The notes under the pieces were generated by a model that saw only the letters and a program-made list of their open reading frames with translations, did not search any database and was not told the origin of the DNA. The position numbers and the translations under genes are program-made. DNA of 64,000 nt. Origin: Streptomyces sp. XD-27. GTDB lineage: Bacteria > Actinomycetota > Actinomycetes > Streptomycetales > Streptomycetaceae. The DNA is taken from NCBI RefSeq assembly GCF_030553055.1, contig NZ_CP130713.1:6448001-6512000 (forward strand), read 5' to 3'. Shown here one piece after another: positions 52,600 to 62,319 of this stretch (the stretch's first letter is position 1; every line of letters starts with the position of its first letter).

Positions 52600-52687
52600 G
52601 TCCGGGTGGCGGAATGGCAGACGCGCTAGCTTGAGGTGCTAGTGCCCTTTATCGGGCGTGGGGGTTCAAGTCCCCCCTCGGACACCA
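52600..52687 (+). tRNA. tRNA-Leu (anticodon GAG)
   Basis: The acceptor stem GTCCGGG pairs with CTCGGAC, followed by discriminator A and an encoded CCA. The anticodon arm CTAGC-TTGAGGT-GCTAG gives GAG, reading CUC/CUU. A long variable arm (TGCCC...GGGCG) and GGGGG-TTCAAGT-CCCCC T arm are present, as expected for a class II leucine tRNA. Its 3' end is the integration site of the downstream island. Confidence 0.97.
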
Positions 52688-52724
52688 CTGAGAAACCCCA
52701 GCTGAGCTGGGGTTTTTCTGTTTC
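52673..52724 (+). repeat. attL-type direct repeat (left copy)
   Basis: The 52 bp covering the last tRNA-Leu bases, its CCA end and the downstream terminator are repeated exactly at 58566-58617. This is the pattern left by site-specific integration at a tRNA gene. Confidence 0.9.
52693..52715 (+). terminator. tRNA-Leu terminator
   Basis: AAACCCCAGC-TGA-GCTGGGGTTT forms a 10-bp stem with a 3-nt loop, followed by TTC. It lies within the repeated attachment sequence, so a second copy occurs at 58586-58608. Confidence 0.85.
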
Positions 52725-52776: not shown

Positions 52777-52986
52777 TCAGACCAGGGATGACAGGCCGAT
52801 CCGGCTGGCGCCGGACGCGGCCAGCTTCTTCGCCCCTTCGGCGCGACGCCTGCCGTAGCGCGCCATGGTGTAGCCCGGCGAGTGGTGCCGGGCGTTGGCC
52901 GAGACCTCTACCGGGTTCTCGTGGGCGTCCAGATCGTTCGTGATCTTCGACGCCTGCCAGTCGTGCAGCCGGAAGTTCTCCGGCAA
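52777..52986 (-). pseudogene. Tyrosine recombinase (integrase) C-terminal remnant
   Basis: A 69-codon open fragment whose start RLHDWQASKITNDLDAH and later ARHHSPGYTMARYGRRR match the box II and tyrosine end of phage-type integrases. The conserved box II arginine appears to be Gln (HDWQ). Nothing upstream in the frame looks like the rest of an integrase. It lies just inside the left attachment repeat, where the integrase of a tRNA-targeting element normally sits. Confidence 0.7.
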
Positions 52987-52991
52987 GTGCA

Positions 52992-53093
52992 GACGGTTTC
53001 GCGCCGGGGCTGGACACTGCGGCCCGCAAGGGCAACGTCGGTGGACGCCCGTCCGTAATGGACGACGACCGCCACCTGGCAGAGAGCGCCTGA
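52992..53093 (+). pseudogene. Serine recombinase/resolvase C-terminal remnant
   Basis: The plus-strand frame reads LDTAARKGNVGGRPSVMDDD and ends at TGA 53091-53093. The A-R-(K/R)-G-x-x-GGRP motif is the hinge before the DNA-binding helix-turn-helix of resolvase/invertase proteins. Only about 30 codons survive and the HTH is missing. Confidence 0.6.
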
Positions 53094-53165: not shown

Positions 53166-53720
53166 TCAGCTCCCGGACACCGGAGGGGCGGGAGCCTCCT
53201 CGGCAAGCGCGTCCATCAGGAGTTCATCACAGGGTCGACCACGCCAGTAACCGGACTGCCGCAGTCGGCCAGCGGGTTTGAACCCCGCCTTCTCGTACGC
53301 GGTGATCCCTGCCGCGTTCGGCTCCAGCACCTTCAGCCAGACCATCCGCAGCGCGGCGTACTCGAACGCCCACCGGAGCGTCAGGGCCGTCGCCTCCGTG
53401 GCCAGCCCTTTGCCCCGTGCTTCCGGCGCGAGCAGGATGACGTACTCGGCAGTCCGAACGGCTTGATCGATCTGGAGAGTCGTGATGCCGACCGGTGCGC
53501 GGTCATCAGTGGTGATCACCTCGAACTGCGGGAAGTCCCGGTTACGTCCTGCGGCTTCCCAACCGCCGGCACGGACCTCCCAAGACTGAGGGACCTGCGT
53601 ACCGAATCCGAGGATCGTGCTCGGGTCGTTCTCCCAACGGTGGTAGTCGGGCAGGTGATCGCGGTTGGTCATGGCCAGGCTGACTCGCTTGCCTGGAAGC
53701 AGGATGTGAGGGTCGGTCAT
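53166..53720 (-). CDS. GNAT acetyltransferase, probable lasso-peptide lysine acetylase
   Basis: A 184-aa RimJ/RimL-like N-acetyltransferase. The acetyl-CoA pyrophosphate loop is in VILLAPEARGKGLATEAT near residue 98, followed by LKVLEPNAAGITAYEKAGFKPAG. Its ATG overlaps the stop of the lasso peptidase gene by 4 bp (ATGA), so it belongs to the lasso operon. In the albusnodin system of Streptomyces albus, a clustered GNAT enzyme acetylates a lysine of the lasso peptide. The precursor here has a single core lysine, which is the natural target; Lys acetylation is therefore inferred. Confidence 0.88.
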   Translation of the reverse strand: MTDPHILLPGKRVSLAMTNRDHLPDYHRWENDPSTILGFGTQVPQSWEVRAGGWEAAGRNRDFPQFEVITTDDRAPVGITTLQIDQAVRTAEYVILLAPEARGKGLATEATALTLRWAFEYAALRMVWLKVLEPNAAGITAYEKAGFKPAGRLRQSGYWRGRPCDELLMDALAEEAPAPPVSGS

Positions 53721-54370
53721 CTATACCTCTTCGGCGTTGGCTCTGACCCATTGATGGGCGAGTAGTCACCAGTCTGAACGGGTTCTTCGACAGGCTGACC
53801 ATGACTGTCGCAGATCCACGCATGCATGCGTATCGGGTCTGTGGCGACGCCATGGCGCCAAGCTCCCCCGCGACCGCCTACTGCCAACAGCAAGGCGGCA
53901 GCCGCCGACTCCTCCAGACACGCGACGCGAGCGGGGAGAACACGCGCGGCCCATCTGACCGACCTCACCGCCAGACTCGCATGTTCGCGGGTCGGGGGCG
54001 GGAGGCTACGGCCCGCTTCTGCGAGACGTACCAGACGGCCGAACCGCGTTCGTTCTCTCCCGAGCTGACGCGCCGCGAGGGTGGTGACCAGAAGCGCCGT
54101 CGCAGCGACACGCCATGGCCACAGAGGCGCTGCGGGGGTATCCAAACGGGCGGACGACTCGCTGGTTCCCCATGAGATCTCGGAGGCGCGAACAGTCACC
54201 GGTGCCGGGGCTTCGCTGTGCTCCAGCGAATCGAGCCAGCGGCTCAGGGAGTCGCCGGTAAGGACCACCGTCGTGCCGGTCCGGTAGTTGACGACCACGC
54301 CCACCGATGCGGCGAGTGCGGTACGGGTGTACCGAGTAGGGACAGGTACCCTCACGGCCTCTTCTCCCAT
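53717..54370 (-). CDS. Lasso-peptide B protein: RRE-like N-terminus fused to transglutaminase-like leader peptidase
   Basis: A 217-aa protein. Residues about 10-55 (TRYTRTALAASVGVVVNYRTG, then a WLDSLEH helix) resemble a compact PqqD/RRE leader-binding module, normally the separate B1 protein in actinobacteria. The C-terminal part is the B2 cysteine peptidase: the nucleophile is in ARVACLEESAAAALLL, the histidine in DPIRMHAWICDSHGQPVEE. It removes the leader so the cyclase can close the ring. Starts ATG 54370 (19-bp overlap with the cyclase gene) and GTG 54355 (GTGA overlap) are both plausible. Confidence 0.85.
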   Translation of the reverse strand: MGEEAVRVPVPTRYTRTALAASVGVVVNYRTGTTVVLTGDSLSRWLDSLEHSEAPAPVTVRASEISWGTSESSARLDTPAAPLWPWRVAATALLVTTLAARQLGRERTRFGRLVRLAEAGRSLPPPTREHASLAVRSVRWAARVLPARVACLEESAAAALLLAVGGRGGAWRHGVATDPIRMHAWICDSHGQPVEEPVQTGDYSPINGSEPTPKRYR

Positions 54371-56049
54371 CGAACCCTCGCGGTTGCGGTGTCGGTAGTG
54401 CGAAGCCACAGTTCGGTGCCGAGAAGCGGTTCGATCAGCCCCCAGGGGATGTCGATACCGAGTGCTGCCCGGCGAAGAAGCGAGCGCAGGACCGCCGGGC
54501 GCACCAGGCCAAGGTCAGCCAGATGGCCAGCCGTGAGTTCCAGGACGCGGGTCTGGTTGGCGCGGAGCCCGTGGTGATGATCGACCGCGAACAGTCCCTT
54601 GGAGCCGCGCCGCAACACATCCTCGGGCAGGAGATCAGCGACCGCATCGCTCAGCAGCGGCTTGTACCGCTGGGCGGACCAGCGCTCCGACGAGGGAGCA
54701 GCCATCACGGCTTCCAACACCCGGGCATCCGTGAACGGGTTGTGCATCTCGATCCCGTACGCGGCAGCGAGCTGGTTCTCCGTCGCGGCAGTGCGGCCGA
54801 CGTAGCGGGATTCGTTCAGGAGGTGGCGATCGGCATAACCCAAGCGGTCCGCACTCGCGTCTGTCGAGACAACCGACTCGGCCAGCGTGGCCGCGTGATG
54901 GGTGAGCCAAGGCTTCGCTACGGAGACGTTGCCCAGCCGAGCGGGTGCCTTGCAGGCTGCGGCCACGACACGCCAGGGGCTCGAACGGTGAAGGCGGCCC
55001 CATGACTGGGCATCTCGGGCCAGACGTAGCAGTCGGCCAGAGCGCGCGAGATCCGCGAGGTGCACCGGAGGCGGCATGAACAGGGAATCGCCCCCATCGC
55101 CGGTCAGGTGCACGGACACGCCCTCAGCGGTCAACAGGGCGAACTGCGAATAGAGCTGGGCGATCGTCACAGCGGATGGTGCTGGCTCATCCGTGAGTAC
55201 CAGGGCATCCAGGTCTGTGAACGGCAGATGCTCCCGCCCCAAGGCCATGAAGACGTGCCTTATGGACGGGAAGGCATGTGCCACGATGCGTGCGTGGTCC
55301 GCGTCTCCGCCCGACTCCCGGCCCTTGGGGTGGAACGTCACTCCCAGTACCGGGCCGCACTGTGCGGCGTGCGCCGCGAGGGTGCTTGAGTCCAGGCCAC
55401 CGGACAGATCTGACGAGACCTCCCGCCCGTTCACGCGGATGAGGACGCTGTCCGCCAGGTCGCTGCGGAGCCTGTACACCGCCTCGGACCAGGTGGAGGA
55501 GACCGGCCTCCAGTAGGGCGCCGAGAAGGGCGCTCCGTCTCGTGGAACCGTCCACCGATGCCCTGGGGGTACCTGCTCAATACCGGTCCAGGCCGACAGC
55601 CCCGGCGTCCACGCGGTTGGGTCCGCAAGGTGAGCCGCCAGCCAAGCGGTGTCCGGCCGACTCCCCAGCAGGGACGCAAGCGCCAGTGAGCTGGAGGCCC
55701 ACACGTGTGTGCCATCGATCTCGGCCACGTAGAGAGGGCATGAGCCCGCCGGATCGGCCCACAGGGTGAGCGAGTCTCCACGATCGTCCAAGGCGAGCGC
55801 GTAGGAGCCAGACCAGGCGGTCGCCGCCGCGTCGAACTCCCGCAGGTCTGTACAGCGAACCAGCCGGGCCAGCTCCGTATCCATCGCTCCGCATGGACCG
55901 AACACCGCCAGCCGTCGCCCGCCTTCGCACTCCGCCAGGCGCACCGTTGTTTCAACGGACCAGACCTCCGGCTCCCGCCACAGGGCCCGCGCGCCCATAG
56001 GCATCGGGGGCGTGCCAGACGAGGCGAGAGCCCCACCGAACCAACGCAT
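54352..56049 (-). CDS. Lasso-peptide cyclase (asparagine synthetase-like, C protein)
   Basis: A 565-aa ATP-dependent macrolactam synthetase. The N-terminal half is a degenerate amidotransferase domain without the catalytic Cys2 (it begins MRWFGG). The C-terminal half has the ATP-pyrophosphatase motif SSDLSGGLDSSTLAAH at residues 213-228 and TGDGGDSLF further on. It adenylates the Glu side chain of the core and joins it to the new N-terminal glycine. ATG 56049 follows a strong GAGGAGGTGA site. It lies 67 bp downstream of the precursor gene. Confidence 0.92.
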   Translation of the reverse strand: MRWFGGALASSGTPPMPMGARALWREPEVWSVETTVRLAECEGGRRLAVFGPCGAMDTELARLVRCTDLREFDAAATAWSGSYALALDDRGDSLTLWADPAGSCPLYVAEIDGTHVWASSSLALASLLGSRPDTAWLAAHLADPTAWTPGLSAWTGIEQVPPGHRWTVPRDGAPFSAPYWRPVSSTWSEAVYRLRSDLADSVLIRVNGREVSSDLSGGLDSSTLAAHAAQCGPVLGVTFHPKGRESGGDADHARIVAHAFPSIRHVFMALGREHLPFTDLDALVLTDEPAPSAVTIAQLYSQFALLTAEGVSVHLTGDGGDSLFMPPPVHLADLARSGRLLRLARDAQSWGRLHRSSPWRVVAAACKAPARLGNVSVAKPWLTHHAATLAESVVSTDASADRLGYADRHLLNESRYVGRTAATENQLAAAYGIEMHNPFTDARVLEAVMAAPSSERWSAQRYKPLLSDAVADLLPEDVLRRGSKGLFAVDHHHGLRANQTRVLELTAGHLADLGLVRPAVLRSLLRRAALGIDIPWGLIEPLLGTELWLRTTDTATARVRWEKRP

Positions 56050-56081
56050 GTAGTCACCTCCTCTGATCAGCTTGAAAGGGT

Positions 56082-56110
56082 GCGGCGGCACCTCAGAGAG
56101 ATGCCGCCGC
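56082..56110 (-). promoter_or_regulatory. Intercistronic hairpin between precursor and cyclase genes
   Basis: GCGGCGGCA and TGCCGCCGC form a perfect 9-bp stem with an 11-nt loop 7 bases after the precursor stop. Such structures in RiPP operons act as partial terminators or 3' stabilisers, giving more precursor than enzyme. No T-run follows. Confidence 0.6.
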
Positions 56111-56116
56111 CGGATG

Positions 56117-56245
56117 CTAGGCCCCGTAGGGCGAGCGCTTGTTCTCCACGCTGGTGTCGGTGTTGCCCTTCGTCAGGAGCGTCGCGTCCTCCAGGCTCAC
56201 GACCTCCTCAACCGGCTCGGTGTCGAGCTGAGAGCGGTCCTCCAT
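56117..56245 (-). CDS. Lasso-peptide precursor (core GNTDTSVENKRSPYGA)
   Basis: A 42-aa precursor. The leader of about 26 residues (begins MEDRSQLDTE, ends EDATLLTK) has threonine at position -2, required by lasso peptidases. The core starts with Gly1 and has Glu8 in the ring-forming position, giving an 8-residue macrolactam with the tail NKRSPYGA threaded. The only core lysine, Lys10 followed by Arg11, is the likely acetylation site. GGAGG lies 8 bases before ATG 56245. An alternative cut at another residue is unlikely, given Thr-Lys/Gly and ring size. Bulky Tyr14 or Lys10-Arg11 may serve as steric plugs. Confidence 0.9.
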   Translation of the reverse strand: MEDRSQLDTEPVEEVVSLEDATLLTKGNTDTSVENKRSPYGA

Positions 56246-56380: not shown

Positions 56381-56605
56381 TCAGGCGGGCGTCTCGTGGT
56401 CCGGCATGGACCGATCGGCCAAGGACGAGGCGTGATCTCCAAGTCCGTCGTGCTGCGTTGCCGCGACGCCGAGGAGGAACAGAACGAGGATCTGGCCCAG
56501 CATCCAGGTACCGTTCAGGACCGATCCAAGGGCGTCGCGCCGTTCCTCGCGACGACGGCTGATGGCCTTGCTGGACCCAAGAGCCATGCCATTCTTCGCT
56601 GCCAT
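56381..56605 (-). CDS. Small single-span membrane protein of the lasso island
   Basis: A 74-aa protein with a basic N-terminus (SSKAISRRREERRDAL), one hydrophobic helix (TWMLGQILVLFLLGVAA) and an acidic, His-containing tail. GAAGGG precedes ATG 56605. It is upstream of the precursor in the same direction and divergent from the XRE-TPR regulator. No homologue is recognised. It could be immunity, export or sensor-related; the sequence alone does not decide. Confidence 0.6.
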   Translation of the reverse strand: MAAKNGMALGSSKAISRRREERRDALGSVLNGTWMLGQILVLFLLGVAATQHDGLGDHASSLADRSMPDHETPA

Positions 56606-56686: not shown

Positions 56687-56735
56687 GCATCAATGCGGCA
56701 GTCTTGATGCAGATCCGTGCACGGGAACACCGTGC
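56687..56735. promoter_or_regulatory. Dyads in the divergent promoter of regulator and lasso-side genes
   Basis: GCATCAA (56687-56693) and TTGATGC (56704-56710) form a perfect 7-bp inverted repeat with a 10-bp spacer. Next to it, GCACGG-GAACA-CCGTGC (56719-56735) is a second dyad, overlapping the palindrome CCGTGCACGG. They lie between the small membrane gene and the XRE-TPR regulator and are candidate operators for that regulator. Confidence 0.5.
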
Positions 56736-56761: not shown

Positions 56762-58015
56762 ATGGGACTGGCGGAACGACGCAAGGCCCTGGGCTACAGT
56801 CAGGAGAAATTGGCCGAGTTACTCGGCGTGGACCGCACAACGGTCGGACGCTGGGAGGGCGGCAGGATCAAACCTCAGCCACCCCAGCGACGGAGCTTGG
56901 CCATCGCCCTCGAAGTCAGCCTCACCGAGCTTGACGCCCTCCTGACGCAGCCACGAGCAGCCAGCCATGAGGAAGCAGGGCAGCAGTCCAGTGACCACCC
57001 AGGCGTGGGAGACCCCGACGAAATGATCCGCCGCGAATTCCTCCGCATCCTCACAGTCAGCGGGGCCCTGACCGCCTTGCCGCTGGATGAGGCAGAAGCC
57101 CTCACCGACGGAGTGCGCAGGGGCGCGCCCGCCGACTTCACGCGGATGAACAACCACCTCTGGCAGGTCTACCAGCTAGCCCGCTCCAAAGGCTCCGTCT
57201 ATCCCATCGTCCGCGACCAGCTATCGACGCTGAACGAAGCCCTGGCGGATACCCGAGGCAACTCCCGCCCGCTCCTGAACGCAGCAGCCGACCTCTTCCA
57301 ACTGGCCGGAGAGGTCGCCTTCGACGCGAACCGATACACCGACGCGGCAGCGTCGTACTCCTTGGCGGCGTCCGTCAGCAAGGACGCCGAAGCCTTCGAC
57401 CTGTGGGCCTGCGCCCTCGCGCGCCACGCCTACGTGGACATGTCCGAGCACCGCTACCGCCAGGCGGCGCAGATCCTTGGAGCGGCGGAGAGACTGGCCA
57501 AGCGGGGAGACAGCATCCTCGCCACCCGGCATTGGGTCGCCGCCGTCCAGGCCGAGGCGTACGCCGGCATTGGCGACCTGGACGCCTGTGAGCGCGCGCT
57601 GGACGACGCGGAGCAGGTGAGGGAGCTGAGCACGGACGGCACCAACGGGGGCTGGCTGCGCTTCGACGGGACGCGGTTGGCCGAGGAACGGGGAGCGCGC
57701 TACGTACAGCTTGGCCGCCTCGACCTGGCGGAAGAGACCCTGAAGAAGGCGCTGGCCCAGACCGCCCTTGCCTCCGGGCAGTCGTACCGGCGCAGGGGCG
57801 CCGTCCTGACCGATCTTGCCGCTGTCGGGGCGAAGCGGCGTGACCCTGAACAAGTCGTCGCATACGGGCGGGAAGCCATTCGGTTGGCCCAAGCATCATC
57901 GTCCGGGTACATCGCCCGTAGACTCCAAGCCCTGTGCGATGAGTTCGGCCCTCTGAGCAGGGACCGCCGGGTAGCGGAGCTGGGGGCGGAGATCGCCACG
58001 CTGAGCACGCCGTGA
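56762..58015 (+). CDS. XRE-family regulator with TPR domain
   Basis: A 417-aa regulator. The HTH at the N-terminus is RRKALGYSQEKLAELLGVDR, then TTVGRWEGGRIKPQP. From about residue 120, helical TPR-like repeats run to the end (for example AADLFQLAGEVAFDANRYTDAAASY and RYVQLGRLDLAEETLKKAL). This is the Streptomyces type of cytoplasmic regulator in which TPRs may sense a peptide or partner protein. ATG 56762 follows GAGAGGGG. It is divergent from the lasso operon side and is likely its local controller. Confidence 0.88.
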   Translation: MGLAERRKALGYSQEKLAELLGVDRTTVGRWEGGRIKPQPPQRRSLAIALEVSLTELDALLTQPRAASHEEAGQQSSDHPGVGDPDEMIRREFLRILTVSGALTALPLDEAEALTDGVRRGAPADFTRMNNHLWQVYQLARSKGSVYPIVRDQLSTLNEALADTRGNSRPLLNAAADLFQLAGEVAFDANRYTDAAASYSLAASVSKDAEAFDLWACALARHAYVDMSEHRYRQAAQILGAAERLAKRGDSILATRHWVAAVQAEAYAGIGDLDACERALDDAEQVRELSTDGTNGGWLRFDGTRLAEERGARYVQLGRLDLAEETLKKALAQTALASGQSYRRRGAVLTDLAAVGAKRRDPEQVVAYGREAIRLAQASSSGYIARRLQALCDEFGPLSRDRRVAELGAEIATLSTP

Positions 58016-58029
58016 CGAGAGGGGTTGGC

Positions 58030-58389
58030 ATGTCGCAGATCGAAGGCGCACGAGTGTTCCGGGAAGCCTGGATCGAAGGAGTGCACCGCCACTTCCCGGG
58101 GGAACCCAAGCCCGGCTACGTCACCCCCTGGGAGGACACGCCGCAGTGGGAGCGCGACGCCGCAGGCGCGGTCTATGACCAGGTCCGCCAGTTCATCGAG
58201 ATCAGCGACGGCCATACGGCCAAGCTGTCGCGGGAGCAGAAGGGCCGGTTCGTGGCAGTGTGCTGGACAGCGCAGATGTTCAAGCACTTCGAGGAGCCCA
58301 AGCCGGGGTACGTCGCCGACTGGCCCGACCTCCCGGCATGGCAGCAGGAGACGGACGCCGACATCTTCGAGGTCATCGAAAAGTCCTGA
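58030..58389 (+). CDS. Conserved hypothetical protein with two PKPGYV repeats
   Basis: A 119-aa soluble acidic protein. It contains an internal duplication: HFPGEPKPGYVTPWEDTPQW and KHFEEPKPGYVADWPDLPAW, each followed by a short acidic helix. ATG 58030 has GAGAGGGG upstream; a GTG at 58012 would overlap the regulator stop. Such proteins occur beside XRE-TPR regulators in Streptomyces, with no known function. It is probably co-transcribed with the regulator and ends at the terminator at 58482. Confidence 0.75.
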   Translation: MSQIEGARVFREAWIEGVHRHFPGEPKPGYVTPWEDTPQWERDAAGAVYDQVRQFIEISDGHTAKLSREQKGRFVAVCWTAQMFKHFEEPKPGYVADWPDLPAWQQETDADIFEVIEKS

Positions 58390-58565: not shown

Positions 58566-58617
58566 CCCCCTCGGACACCACTGAGAAACCCCAGCTGAGC
58601 TGGGGTTTTTCTGTTTC
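58566..58617 (+). repeat. attR-type direct repeat (right copy)
   Basis: Exact 52-bp copy of 52673-52724, including the tRNA 3' end fragment with CCA and the terminator hairpin. A further 8 bases upstream (GTTCAAGT) also match, offset by one missing C. From 58618 to 58755 I see no gene, only a duplicated AGAGGCTGAGG (58691 and 58739) before the next gene. Confidence 0.9.
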
Positions 58618-58755: not shown

Positions 58756-60777
58756 ATGTCCACGCTCATGTCTGGTCTGCGAACACTGTTGGGGCGCGCA
58801 AGGCGACGGCGTGGATGGTCGCGCGCGGACCGGGTCGGGGTGGGGGCTGCCATGGGCCTGGCGCTTGTGCTGGCGCTGCCCGGGGTCGCGTGGGCTGCCC
58901 CTGGCGACCTGGATACCGGCTTCGGTGCCGGTGGCAAGGTGCTCACCGACATGGGCGGGGGTGAGGAGGCCCATGGGATGGCGGTGCAGCCCGACGGCAA
59001 GATCGTCGCCGTCGGAATCGGCGCTTCCGGTGACTTCGGGCTGGCCCGCTACACCAGTGACGGCAGTCTGGACACCGGCTTCAGCGGTGACGGCATGGTG
59101 ACCACCGACTTCGGCGGCGATGATGTGGCCAACGGGGTGGCGCTGCAGTCCGACGGCAAGATCGTCGTGGTCGGCCGGAGCGAGGATGTGGTCCAAGGCG
59201 GCTGCTGCTGGTTCACGGTGGCCCGTTACACCAGTGACGGCAGTCTGGACACCGCCTTCAGCGGCGACGGCATGGTGACGACCGACTTCGGCTCCGACGG
59301 CGCCGCGGACGGGTCCGCGGTGGCGGTGCAGTCGGATGGCAGGATTGTCGCCGTCGGCCAGTCGGGCGGCGAATTCGCGGTGGCCCGTTACACCAGCGAC
59401 GGCAGCCTGGACACCGCCTTCAGCGGTGACGGCACGGTGACCACGGCCTTCGACGGCGGTGGCCTGGCCCTCGACATGGCGCTGCAGCCCGACGGGAAGA
59501 TCGTCGCCGTCGGCTACGCCGGGGGCACCGCCTTCGACTTCGCGCTGGCCCGCTACACCAGTGACGGCAGCCTGGACACCGGCTTCAGCGGTGACGGCAA
59601 GGTGACCACCGACTTCGGCGGCACCGAATTCGGCGAGGGGGTGGCGGTGCAGTCGGATGGCAGGATTGTCGCCGTCGGCGCGTCGGGCGGCGACTTCGCG
59701 GTGGCCCGTTACACCGGTGACGGCAGTCTGGACACCGGCTTCAGCGGTGACGGCAAGGTGACCACCGACTTCGACGGCCGATTCGACCATGCCCACGACG
59801 TGGCGGTGCAGTCCGACGGAAGGATCATCGCCGCCGGCAACAGCGCTACGGCCGACGTCCATGAGTTCGCGCTGGCCCGCTACAACACCACCGGCAGCCT
59901 GGACACCGGCTTCAGCGGTGACGGCAAGGTGACCACCGACTTCGGCGGCACCGACCAGGCATCCGCCGTCGCGCTGCAGAGCGACGACAAGATCGTCGCC
60001 GCCGGCACCGGAGGGCCGGGCTACGACTTCGCACTGGCCCGCTACGAGGGCGGCTCCGCACCGCCCCCGCCCGGCGTGGACGTATCCGTCGCCAAGTCCG
60101 GCCCTGCCGCCGTCAGCATCGGCGACCGAGTCTCCTACACCGTGACCGTGACCAACTCCAGCGAGACCGCGTCGGCCACCGACGTCGCACTGGCCGATGC
60201 CCTGACCGGAGCCGGTGTGACACTGATGTCGGCCACGCCCAGCCAGGGCACCTGCACGACCACGTCCACCGGCGCCGACTGCACCCTGGGCTCCCTGGCC
60301 CCCGGGGCCGCCGCCACGGTCACCGTGGTCGCCGAACCCAGGTCCACCGGCAGCCTCTCCGACACCGCCACGGTCGACGCCACAGAAACCGACCCCGTAC
60401 CGGGCAACAACACCGCCACGGCGACCACCACCGTGAACAACGCCCGTGGTTGCACGACCATCGGTACCAGCGGGGCCGACAACCTGGTTGGCACCTCCGG
60501 CAACGACGTGATCTGCGCCCTCAGCGGTGATGACGTCGTCAGTGCGGTCGGCGGCAACGACACCGTCCACGCCGGATACGGAAACGACAGGGCCGACGGC
60601 GGCATCGGCAACGACACGCTCAACGCCGGCCCCGGCAACGACACGCTGACCGGATACTCCGGCGCCGACGCGCTCGACACCGTCGACACCGTGTCCGGCA
60701 ACGACACGGCCAACGGTGGCGCCGGAACCGACACCTGCACCACGGACCCCGGCGACATCCGCACCAGCTGCTCGTAG
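58756..60777 (+). CDS. Secreted delta-60 repeat protein with DUF11 and RTX-type C-terminus
   Basis: A 673-aa exported protein. A long basic N-region and hydrophobic core end at VAWAAPGDLD, a signal peptide. Residues about 50-435 contain eight delta-60 repeats (each about 50 aa, core SLDTGFSGDG...TDFGG...QSDGKIVAVG...ARYTSD), expected to form a beta-propeller-like array. A DUF11 domain follows (about 442-560), with VSVAKSGPAAVSIGDRVSYT, and then calcium-binding RTX nonapeptides (GGNDTVHAG, GGIGNDTLNAG, GPGNDTLTG). GAGGGG precedes ATG. It is probably a surface or matrix protein. It lies directly after attR and ends at an att-like hairpin. Confidence 0.88.
   Translation: MSTLMSGLRTLLGRARRRRGWSRADRVGVGAAMGLALVLALPGVAWAAPGDLDTGFGAGGKVLTDMGGGEEAHGMAVQPDGKIVAVGIGASGDFGLARYTSDGSLDTGFSGDGMVTTDFGGDDVANGVALQSDGKIVVVGRSEDVVQGGCCWFTVARYTSDGSLDTAFSGDGMVTTDFGSDGAADGSAVAVQSDGRIVAVGQSGGEFAVARYTSDGSLDTAFSGDGTVTTAFDGGGLALDMALQPDGKIVAVGYAGGTAFDFALARYTSDGSLDTGFSGDGKVTTDFGGTEFGEGVAVQSDGRIVAVGASGGDFAVARYTGDGSLDTGFSGDGKVTTDFDGRFDHAHDVAVQSDGRIIAAGNSATADVHEFALARYNTTGSLDTGFSGDGKVTTDFGGTDQASAVALQSDDKIVAAGTGGPGYDFALARYEGGSAPPPPGVDVSVAKSGPAAVSIGDRVSYTVTVTNSSETASATDVALADALTGAGVTLMSATPSQGTCTTTSTGADCTLGSLAPGAAATVTVVAEPRSTGSLSDTATVDATETDPVPGNNTATATTTVNNARGCTTIGTSGADNLVGTSGNDVICALSGDDVVSAVGGNDTVHAGYGNDRADGGIGNDTLNAGPGNDTLTGYSGADALDTVDTVSGNDTANGGAGTDTCTTDPGDIRTSCS
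59041..60050 (+). repeat. Intragenic DNA repeats of the delta-60 gene
   Basis: Near-identical blocks beginning GCCCGYTACACCAGTGACGG recur at about 59044, 59221, 59383, 59548, 59701 and 59877. Spacing is 150-180 bp, in phase with the protein repeat. High identity at synonymous sites indicates recent duplication or gene conversion. Confidence 0.85.
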
Positions 60778-60796
60778 CGGACCGGCCTGCCGGGCT

Positions 60797-60840
60797 CCTC
60801 GGACACCTGTGAGAACCCCGGATGAGCCGGGGTTCTCAGA
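60797..60840. terminator. Bidirectional terminator hairpin resembling the tRNA-Leu att sequence
   Basis: TGAGAACCCCGG-ATGAG-CCGGGGTTCTCA is a perfect 12-bp stem at 60810-60838 between the convergent delta-60 and serpin genes. Preceded by CCTCGGACACC, the whole stretch aligns with the tRNA-Leu 3' end plus terminator, with several mismatches and one gap, and may be an older attachment-site relic. Confidence 0.65.
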
Positions 60841-62050
60841 GGGTCGACAGGTCGGGGATGTCGTCGGGGTCGGTGACCCAGCCCGCCGCCAGTACCAGAC
60901 CGGTGGCGCGGTGGACGGCGAGGAAGCCGAAGGGACGGTCGAAGCAGGCGCCGACATGCATCGACCGCTGCATCGGCACACCGGACGCGTCGATCCCGAA
61001 GGCGGTGACGGCCGCTGCCTCGAATCCCTTCGCGGTGAACGCGGCTGTCATGGCCTGCTGCGCGGAGGAGACGGCCAGCGGCACCGGGCTGATGCCCGGG
61101 AAGTGGCCGCGCGAGGCGTCCATTGCCGTGCGGAGCCCGAACAGTCCCGCGTGCCGGAGCAGGTCGTGGCGGGCCCGTACCGTGAACTGCGGCGTGGCGA
61201 TGGTCAGCGTCGGGGTGGCGTCCCAGCTGGTGACTTCCCGTACGGTGACGCCCGGGCCCGCCTCACCGGGCGGCAGGGCCGAACCGGGCCGGGTCTCGCA
61301 GTCGCCGGCGAGCACGCCCACGCCCGCGTGCAGTACCTCACCGCCGGCCACGCCCTCGGAGCCGAGGAGCAGGAACACCGTCAGGCCGTTGTCGCCGGGG
61401 ATCTCGGCGACGGTCAGGGGTCCTGCCGGGGTGTCGTGGGCGATCCGGACACCGTCGAGGTCCTTGCCGGACTGGTAGAGACCATGCAACTGCCGCGCCC
61501 GCCACGGCCCGTGGTCCGGGGTCATCCACCCGTCCCGGAAGGGCACCGTCCACGTGGTGCGCAGCAGCAGCGCCCCGGCCAGGACCAGCAGGGTGTCGGG
61601 CGTCACCGGCACCGGCATCGTGTCGATGGCGCCGGCCGTGTGCCGGGCCGCCCAGCCGTCCAACTCCCGGCGGTCCGCTTCCGTATCACCGGTGAGGGCG
61701 CCGCGCACGCCCGGCGGCAGCGCCGTCTCCCACGCCCGGCGCACCGGCACCAGGCCCTGCCGGATCCACAGGCCGGTGGCCGCGGCCACCCCGTCCATCG
61801 CGTCCAGCGCCTCGATCACCGCGCGTCCCTGGGCCAGCGGGCTCACGCTGCCCGCAAGGCCCACAGCGGCTTCGAGCTCGCCCCGCGCGGGCCCGTTGGC
61901 GCCGCCCGCCAGCACCGCGAGCAACGGCCAGACCCCGGCGGACGAGAAGACGGTGCCTCCGTCCACTCCGTCGGGAGCCTTGTCCACCGCGATCCGTGCC
62001 CAGTCGCCGGTCAGTTGGTTGACCGCCCGTACGGTCTCTTCGGCGAGCAT
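60836..62050 (-). CDS. Serpin family protein
   Basis: A 404-aa serpin-fold protein. The sequence follows serpin order: NTVFSS-like VFSSAGVWPLLAVLAGGA, the LLVLAGALLLRTTWTVPF strand s3A, and the C-terminal signature FDRPFGFLAVHRATGLVLAAGWV. The reactive-loop hinge reads KGFEAAAVTAFG, with Phe where inhibitory serpins usually have Thr/Ser, so inhibition is uncertain. The loop places the scissile bond near Asp-Ala-Ser-Gly. There is no signal peptide, so it is probably intracellular. ATG 62050 is chosen because upstream residues are Arg-rich and not serpin-like. Confidence 0.88.
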   Translation of the reverse strand: MLAEETVRAVNQLTGDWARIAVDKAPDGVDGGTVFSSAGVWPLLAVLAGGANGPARGELEAAVGLAGSVSPLAQGRAVIEALDAMDGVAAATGLWIRQGLVPVRRAWETALPPGVRGALTGDTEADRRELDGWAARHTAGAIDTMPVPVTPDTLLVLAGALLLRTTWTVPFRDGWMTPDHGPWRARQLHGLYQSGKDLDGVRIAHDTPAGPLTVAEIPGDNGLTVFLLLGSEGVAGGEVLHAGVGVLAGDCETRPGSALPPGEAGPGVTVREVTSWDATPTLTIATPQFTVRARHDLLRHAGLFGLRTAMDASRGHFPGISPVPLAVSSAQQAMTAAFTAKGFEAAAVTAFGIDASGVPMQRSMHVGACFDRPFGFLAVHRATGLVLAAGWVTDPDDIPDLSTL

Positions 62051-62319
62051 TCCCGTTCCCCGTCCCCGTCTCCGTCGCTCAGCCCATCGGCCGGACCGAC
62101 ACCGCCCCCGGCCGTTGATCAGGGTATCCGCCCGGGTGCGTGCCGCCCCGATCTCGCTCGCGCCCCAGGAGGCCACCGACGTCCGCACGCGGTGGCACAC
62201 CAGCCCACCGCGTGTGGTCGGGTAGCGGAACCCCCAGCGCGCCGGACGCGTGGCATGAAGTTCTGATCATTCTGGGCGTTCGGGCCTGGCGAGTGGGCCC
62301 CAGTGGCAACAATGTGCGC

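Follow-up and report, generated by a model that had tools for sequence, protein, structure and literature searches.

The 64,000-nucleotide stretch of the Streptomyces sp. XD-27 genome analysed here (the window; contig NZ_CP130713.1, positions 6,448,001 to 6,512,000) carries a well-formed albusnodin-family lasso peptide operon, a further member of a known family. It is likely that this operon makes a lasso peptide acetylated on Lys10 by its own GCN5-related N-acetyltransferase (GNAT), T, and that it does so as the cargo of an integrative island at a tRNA-Leu(GAG) gene. The initial annotation of this DNA had recognised the operon and missed the island. The four biosynthetic genes lie in the order A-C-B-T on the minus strand (56245 to 53166), with 4-base overlaps at C/B and at B/T:

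56117..56245, minus strand: lasso precursor A, 42 codons, comprising a 26-residue leader and the 16-residue core GNTDTSVENKRSPYGA
54352..56046, minus strand: lasso macrolactam cyclase C, 564 codons counted from the ATG, with the motif SGGLDSS
53717..54355, minus strand: B protein, a C-terminal leader peptidase (B2) preceded by about 46 N-terminal residues
53166..53720, minus strand: GNAT acetyltransferase T, AlbT-like, with the motif R-G-K-G-L-A at residues 102-107

Curated NCBIfam models place A in the albusnodin family (NF033525, 33.6 bits against a cut-off of 30), C among the albusnodin/ikarugamycin macrolactam cyclases (NF033561, 645.8 bits against 300) and B among the lasso B2 leader peptidases (NF033537, 83 bits against 33), with Cys146 and His178 of B invariant across 17 homologues. 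T aligns with the GNATs of the albusnodin-like loci L003 and L004, and its best relatives of solved structure (PDB 9IY3, 9IY4 and 9UBC; E 3.2e-42 over residues 6-181) are entered as 'GCN5-related N-acetyltransferase'. These matches are in agreement with the initial annotation, which had read an albusnodin-like operon with a 42-codon precursor, an SGGLDSS cyclase and a GNAT gene overlapping its neighbour. The same annotation had presented the precursor as previously unannotated; the curated model detects it and its orthologues, in a protein set clustered at 90% identity, already bear the name 'albusnodin family lasso peptide', so that it belongs to a known kind. The proposed fusion of an RRE with a peptidase stands for the B2 peptidase, the N-terminal 46 or so residues being only suggestive of an RRE, which may be a shortened one, and the proposed terminator is at most putative.

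Precursors were gathered from loci in a sample of 392 genomes of the genus, together with 14 named loci, the named relatives being Streptomyces throughout, bar one Kitasatospora and one Sinosporangium. This gave 23 cores from 23 loci, including the window, two of which (L002 and L038) share one genome, G202; outside these stand one locus cut by a contig end (L016) and four in which the precursor was not found (L017, L043, L044 and L045). Repeats were left out of the counts (L007, L009, L010, L011 and L012, which are the genomes of L037, L032, L036, L048 and the window, and L049, which is L038). Gly1, Glu8, Lys10 and Tyr14 are kept in 23/23 cores. The cores form one group of variants of GQGxGQSEDKRRAYNC (L001-L006 and L008), a second of the form GNTxxSVENKRSPYGA (the window and nine more loci), and a mixed third group consisting of GGDDTGVENKRAPYDC (L013), GNENESVESKQEPYS (L014), GSDQQSTENKQEPYD (L015), GGNSSSVENKRSPYNC (L039), GSTSESVENKRSPYGG (L040) and GSNNQSVEGKRSPYNA (L042). 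The window's leader has Thr at -2 and its core has Gly1, Glu8 and Lys10, as had been noted at the outset, and the E8-x-K10 arrangement is common to the window and the albusnodin-like cores GQGGGQSEDKRRAYNC of L003-L005. The ring from Gly1 to Glu8 and the acetyl site at Lys10 that the initial annotation predicted are consistent with the constancy of these positions and, for Lys10, with the precedent of albusnodin. The E8-x-K10 pair is present in all 23 cores and T at 21 of the 23 loci, the exceptions being L006, at a contig edge, and L041, from which T has been lost. Lys10 alone was ruled out as a marker of acetylation and is not diagnostic, because the 12 cores from other lasso groups, which have no T, include three with this residue (L022, L025 and L028); the E8-x-K10 pair occurs in 0/12 of these cores (no core was found for L030).

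The best prediction from these features is a lasso closed between Gly1 and Glu8 with acetyl-Lys10. In such a pathway B would cut behind Thr(-2)-Lys(-1) to free the core of its 26-residue leader. C would link the Gly1 amine and the side chain of Glu8 by an isopeptide bond, so that the ring surrounds the tail, and the Lys10 side chain would be acetylated by T, most probably as an integral part of assembly, on the model of albusnodin. The computed [M+H]+ of the 16-residue product is 1719.793 if acetylated and 1677.783 if unacetylated, compared with 1695.793 for the linear peptide. An AlbT-like GNAT adjoins 16 of 17 albusnodin-type cyclases (L001-L017) compared with none of 13 other lasso cyclases (L018-L030), counted within about 1.5 kb with two T queries, so that other GNATs could escape; the single miss is L006, the matches at L002, L008 and L017 are partial, and an eighteenth albusnodin-type place (G202:C66, the L038 locus) lies outside the 17. 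Among seven genomes T shows the lowest mean differences at codon positions 1 and 2 (0.054 and 0.024, compared with 0.089 and 0.066 for B and 0.098 and 0.067 for C). For albusnodin, two reviews state that Lys10 is acetylated and conserved and that deletion of albT abolishes all product (PMC9266682, PMC8498205). We rank a role of acetylation in assembly first and a role in resistance second.

The latter role, which we regard as possible though rather improbable, would make the GNAT a self-resistance enzyme: the unacetylated lasso would be the active form, and T would acetylate Lys10 after folding, disarming the antibiotic inside its producer. A 2026 review presents lysine acetylation as self-resistance in triculamin and lariocidin and counts acetylation among the modifications confirmed after lasso formation (PMC13352647), and a self-resistance role is hypothesised for LrcE in another report (PMC11451635). 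Also in its favour, in L043, L044 and L045 the precursor and most of the cyclase are gone while the B and T genes are open, and private amino-acid changes are relatively more frequent in the remaining cyclase piece than in T for L044 (6/14 versus 2/17, p 0.10) and L045 (4/7 versus 1/6, p 0.27), both differences being non-significant by Fisher's test. The L043 cyclase piece, in contrast, shows no excess of change (3/12 versus 7/22 in T, p 1.0), and none of the three left-over cyclase pieces contains a stop codon, such that the losses look recent and are no proof that T was kept for its own sake. When T was compared with the left-over piece for stronger constraint, as expected of orphan immunity, pairwise dN/dS was mixed and the counts of private changes were few. 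Also against this reading, the albT deletion in albusnodin gave no product at all, rather than an unacetylated one (PMC9266682).

The island that carries this operon is delimited by a tRNA gene and a direct repeat derived from it:

52600..52687, plus strand: tRNA-Leu (GAG), the attachment gene
52673..52724, plus strand: attL, a 52-nt direct repeat copy over the tRNA 3' end
52780..53025, minus strand: tyrosine integrase remnant, equivalent to residues 337-425 of the 425-residue relative in L035
53007..53072, plus strand: serine recombinase scrap, equivalent to residues 220-241 of the L035 protein
58566..58617, plus strand: attR, the identical 52-nt copy, 5893 bp from attL

The two copies are identical at 52/52 nt and, 5893 bp apart, enclose a 5.9-kb island with 66.9% GC between flanks of 73.4% and 71.3%. 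Between the repeats lie the operon, a putative membrane ORF, an XRE-type regulator, a 125-codon partner ORF and what is left of a serine recombinase and a tyrosine integrase, and the presence of tRNA-derived direct repeats at both ends is what an integrative island should display. An intact integrase was not found in the window's island, which holds only the remnant, and no FtsK/TraB-type transfer gene was recognised there, no search with the TraB model having been made; likewise, the span from serine recombinase to integrase in L047 (11000-13800) contains no unassigned ORF above 167 codons, again with no TraB-model search. A small integrative island bearing the operon would have entered at tRNA-Leu(GAG), and the window's copy, having lost its recombinases, is probably fixed in place; a full-length integrase survives in relatives. 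The ends and the spread of the unit are directly visible, and it may still be mobile at present. A second tRNA-Leu identical to the attachment tRNA is present elsewhere in the genome, a single contig of 7.55 Mb (G000:C1:1320241-1320333). To the right of attR (58756-62200) are a plus-strand gene of 673 codons for what we take to be a repeat-rich protein and, at 60836-62200 on the minus strand, a gene presumably for a serpin-like protein.

The window-type unit, whole or broken, was found in 13 genomes (the window, L032-L039, L041, L043, L045 and L048), with a full-length regulator in 11 of these and open A-C-B-T in 10. tRNA-Leu(GAG) adjoins the T side in 10/13 carriers, the window included, and end repeats of 22 to 91 nt are present in eight. 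The islands of L035, L036/L047 and L037/L046, about 10.3-10.4 kb long, retain the integrase at full length (425 codons) along with a serine recombinase and two more genes; the open frame of the integrase was seen in L035. The copy in Sinosporangium album (Streptosporangiales) has 93-96% DNA identity to the L035 and L037 islands over three main blocks, and such identity across orders argues for recent transfer, with contamination of this draft genome a possible source. The left flank up to the end of the tRNA is common to the window and five genomes that have no island in the fetched stretch (L064-L068). In G016 (L063, 4551-10972) tRNA-Leu(GAG) is occupied by an island that shares the integrase (95% over residues 206-424), has a 59-nt end repeat (86%) and bears quite different cargo, perhaps a second small biosynthetic cassette moved by this vehicle. 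Read by eye, with no family search, this cargo consists of a helix-turn-helix (HTH) regulator, a cupin-like protein, an aldo/keto reductase and a phosphotransferase-like protein. On contig C30 of G801, the genome of L039, two 24-nt repeats of the tRNA-Leu 3' end stand in a row before one tRNA-Leu(GAG), which suggests tandem islands at one tRNA. No such integrase was seen in the compared stretches of the distant albusnodin-type loci L040, L042, L044 and L050-L052, and searches with the L035 integrase brought up neither a phage record (E limit 1e-40) nor a plasmid record (E limit 1e-60); the cyclase matched two plasmid records at 35-37% identity.

Some carriers show decay: in L041 A is kept, C lacks its beginning, B lacks its end and T is gone, and L043 and L045, like the more distant L044, have the losses described above. 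Together with the absence of recombinases from the window's island, these three broken operons among 13 carriers (L041, L043, L045) would be expected if the cluster were silent or decaying and gave no product in this strain. We consider this unlikely, as all four biosynthetic genes are open and their overlaps, start sites and A-C hairpin are intact. It is very improbable that the operon is an ordinary chromosomal cluster beside the traces of an unrelated insertion at the same tRNA, an idea to which the broken integrase and the other island in G016, marking this tRNA as a favoured target, lend something, because in several genomes the stretch from the tRNA to the far repeat holds the integrase pieces, the operon, the regulator and its partner gene in one constant order, and the repeats enclose exactly this set.

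Several observations weigh against an acetylated lasso peptide carried as island cargo. Median dN/dS of T (0.093) is close to that of the last 88 codons of C (0.099) and is below that of B only (0.172). Published accounts describe a Nonomuraea cluster with an albusnodin-like precursor and no acetyltransferase (PMC8120280), and an ulleungdin cluster with an acetyltransferase gene for which the acetylated peptide was nevertheless undetected (PMC9266682). A sequence search of solved structures gave no match for C or B, and Foldseek with a model of B gave nothing usable for an RRE (top E 0.88). Pfam on the listed genes, the only transporter models applied, picked out no transporter gene in the window's island, which leaves export unexplained. 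As to the island, other tRNAs adjoin the unit in L033 (Leu-CAG) and L039 (Ser) and none was called in L041; end repeats were not found in L034, L038, L039 and L045, and the match in L041 is 13 nt only. The genomes compared gave no clean empty site in which both flanks are present: none of 12 carrier right flanks had a match of at least 150 bases in eight non-carrier stretches.

The peptide itself is one further predicted acetylated lasso of the albusnodin kind, and what is new, within the literature searched, is the island context for this family. The island is a unit of 6-10 kb that has defined ends and, in certain strains, retains its full-length integrase, which allows the role of a lasso peptide in a mobile element to be asked, and the same unit allows acetylation to be examined as a folding step or as an immunity mark; with Lys10 in 23/23 cores and near-constant pairing with T, both questions are testable. 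Speculatively, and with a low likelihood in our estimation, the lasso operon could be the fitness module of an island that is governed by an XRE regulator of its own and moves from one actinomycete to another at tRNA-Leu(GAG), with the peptide acting on island-free cells and the GNAT serving as an element-borne antidote. If so, the acetyl-lysine of albusnodin-type peptides would be no decoration and would mark immunity conferred by the element.

Around and within the operon are further features, which may bear on its expression:

56082..56110, minus strand: conserved hairpin of 13 bp between A and C
56381..56605, minus strand: putative small membrane protein, 74 codons, upstream of A
56687..56710, no strand assigned: inverted repeat GCATCAA-N10-TTGATGC in the divergent promoter region
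56762..58015, plus strand: XRE-type HTH regulator of the NsdA family, divergent from the operon (NF053720, 147.7 bits against a cut-off of 75, scanned with 15 extra N-terminal codons)
58012..58389, plus strand: the regulator's conserved partner ORF, 125 codons, no family match

The A-C hairpin has 98.5% of cells paired over 10 distinct sequences, and its covariation score was matched by 11 of 500 shuffles; the single doubly changed pair was reached by 373/500 shuffles, such that there is no covariation beyond chance there. It is possibly an attenuator or an mRNA stabiliser, and could limit read-through so that A is made in excess. In seven relatives the third codon positions of the precursor differ by 0.099, over only 42 codons, far below T (0.256) and B (0.286); this hints at constraint on synonymous changes, such as a signal in the RNA or DNA across the gene would impose. 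The divergent regulator may act on the operon, and the inverted repeat is a possible operator; spotted by eye, which makes any chance estimate unfair, the repeat is exact in 4/9 aligned sequences, the window included, and has one arm altered in the other five. A sigma-70 promoter scan of the region found none. The small membrane ORF is matched in 11/13 carriers and in L042, and a protein search returned a single match, the window's own; its nearly flat codon-position differences (0.197, 0.213 and 0.243 in six sequences), apparent frameshift in L034 and shortening in L038 make it only weakly a gene, and it was accordingly dropped as a candidate immunity gene.

Albusnodin is said to come from Streptomyces albus DSM 41398, as reportedly described by Zong et al. 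in 2018, and we take the GQGGGQSEDKRRAYNC core of L003-L005 to be its published core. The window resembles the available description of albusnodin in gene order (A-C-B-T) and in the ring-tail layout with acetylated Lys10, predicted in our case, and its cyclase and GNAT belong to the same families as those of L003-L005. Compared with L003, core residues 2-7, 9, 12, 13, 15 and 16 differ and identity is about 38% for the cyclase and about 52% for the GNAT, and unlike albusnodin the window's operon lies on a tRNA-Leu island with an XRE regulator. Lariocidin and triculamin clusters likewise combine a lasso cluster with a GNAT; in contrast, lariocidin is an 18-residue product starting from Ser1, whose cluster has ABC transporter genes and a peptidase gene (PMC11451635), none of which was seen in the window's island, whose core opens with Gly1. 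One article reports lasso peptides of one family close to transposons (PMC11118758), and no description of a tRNA-integrated lasso island was found among the titles and abstract openings listed from the literature searched, a body from which most subscription journals are absent. The closest counterparts are the window-type orthologues in Streptomyces mashuensis (L037), Streptomyces sp. CC53 (L032), JHD 1 (L033), CC228A (L035) and others. These four have the same operon and regulator beside tRNA-Leu, with 90-94% identity to the window in the GNAT, 80-81% in the cyclase and 86-90% in the precursor. Core positions 4-5 vary among such orthologues (NS, SS or DT), and L035 and L037, unlike the window, retain the full-length integrase.

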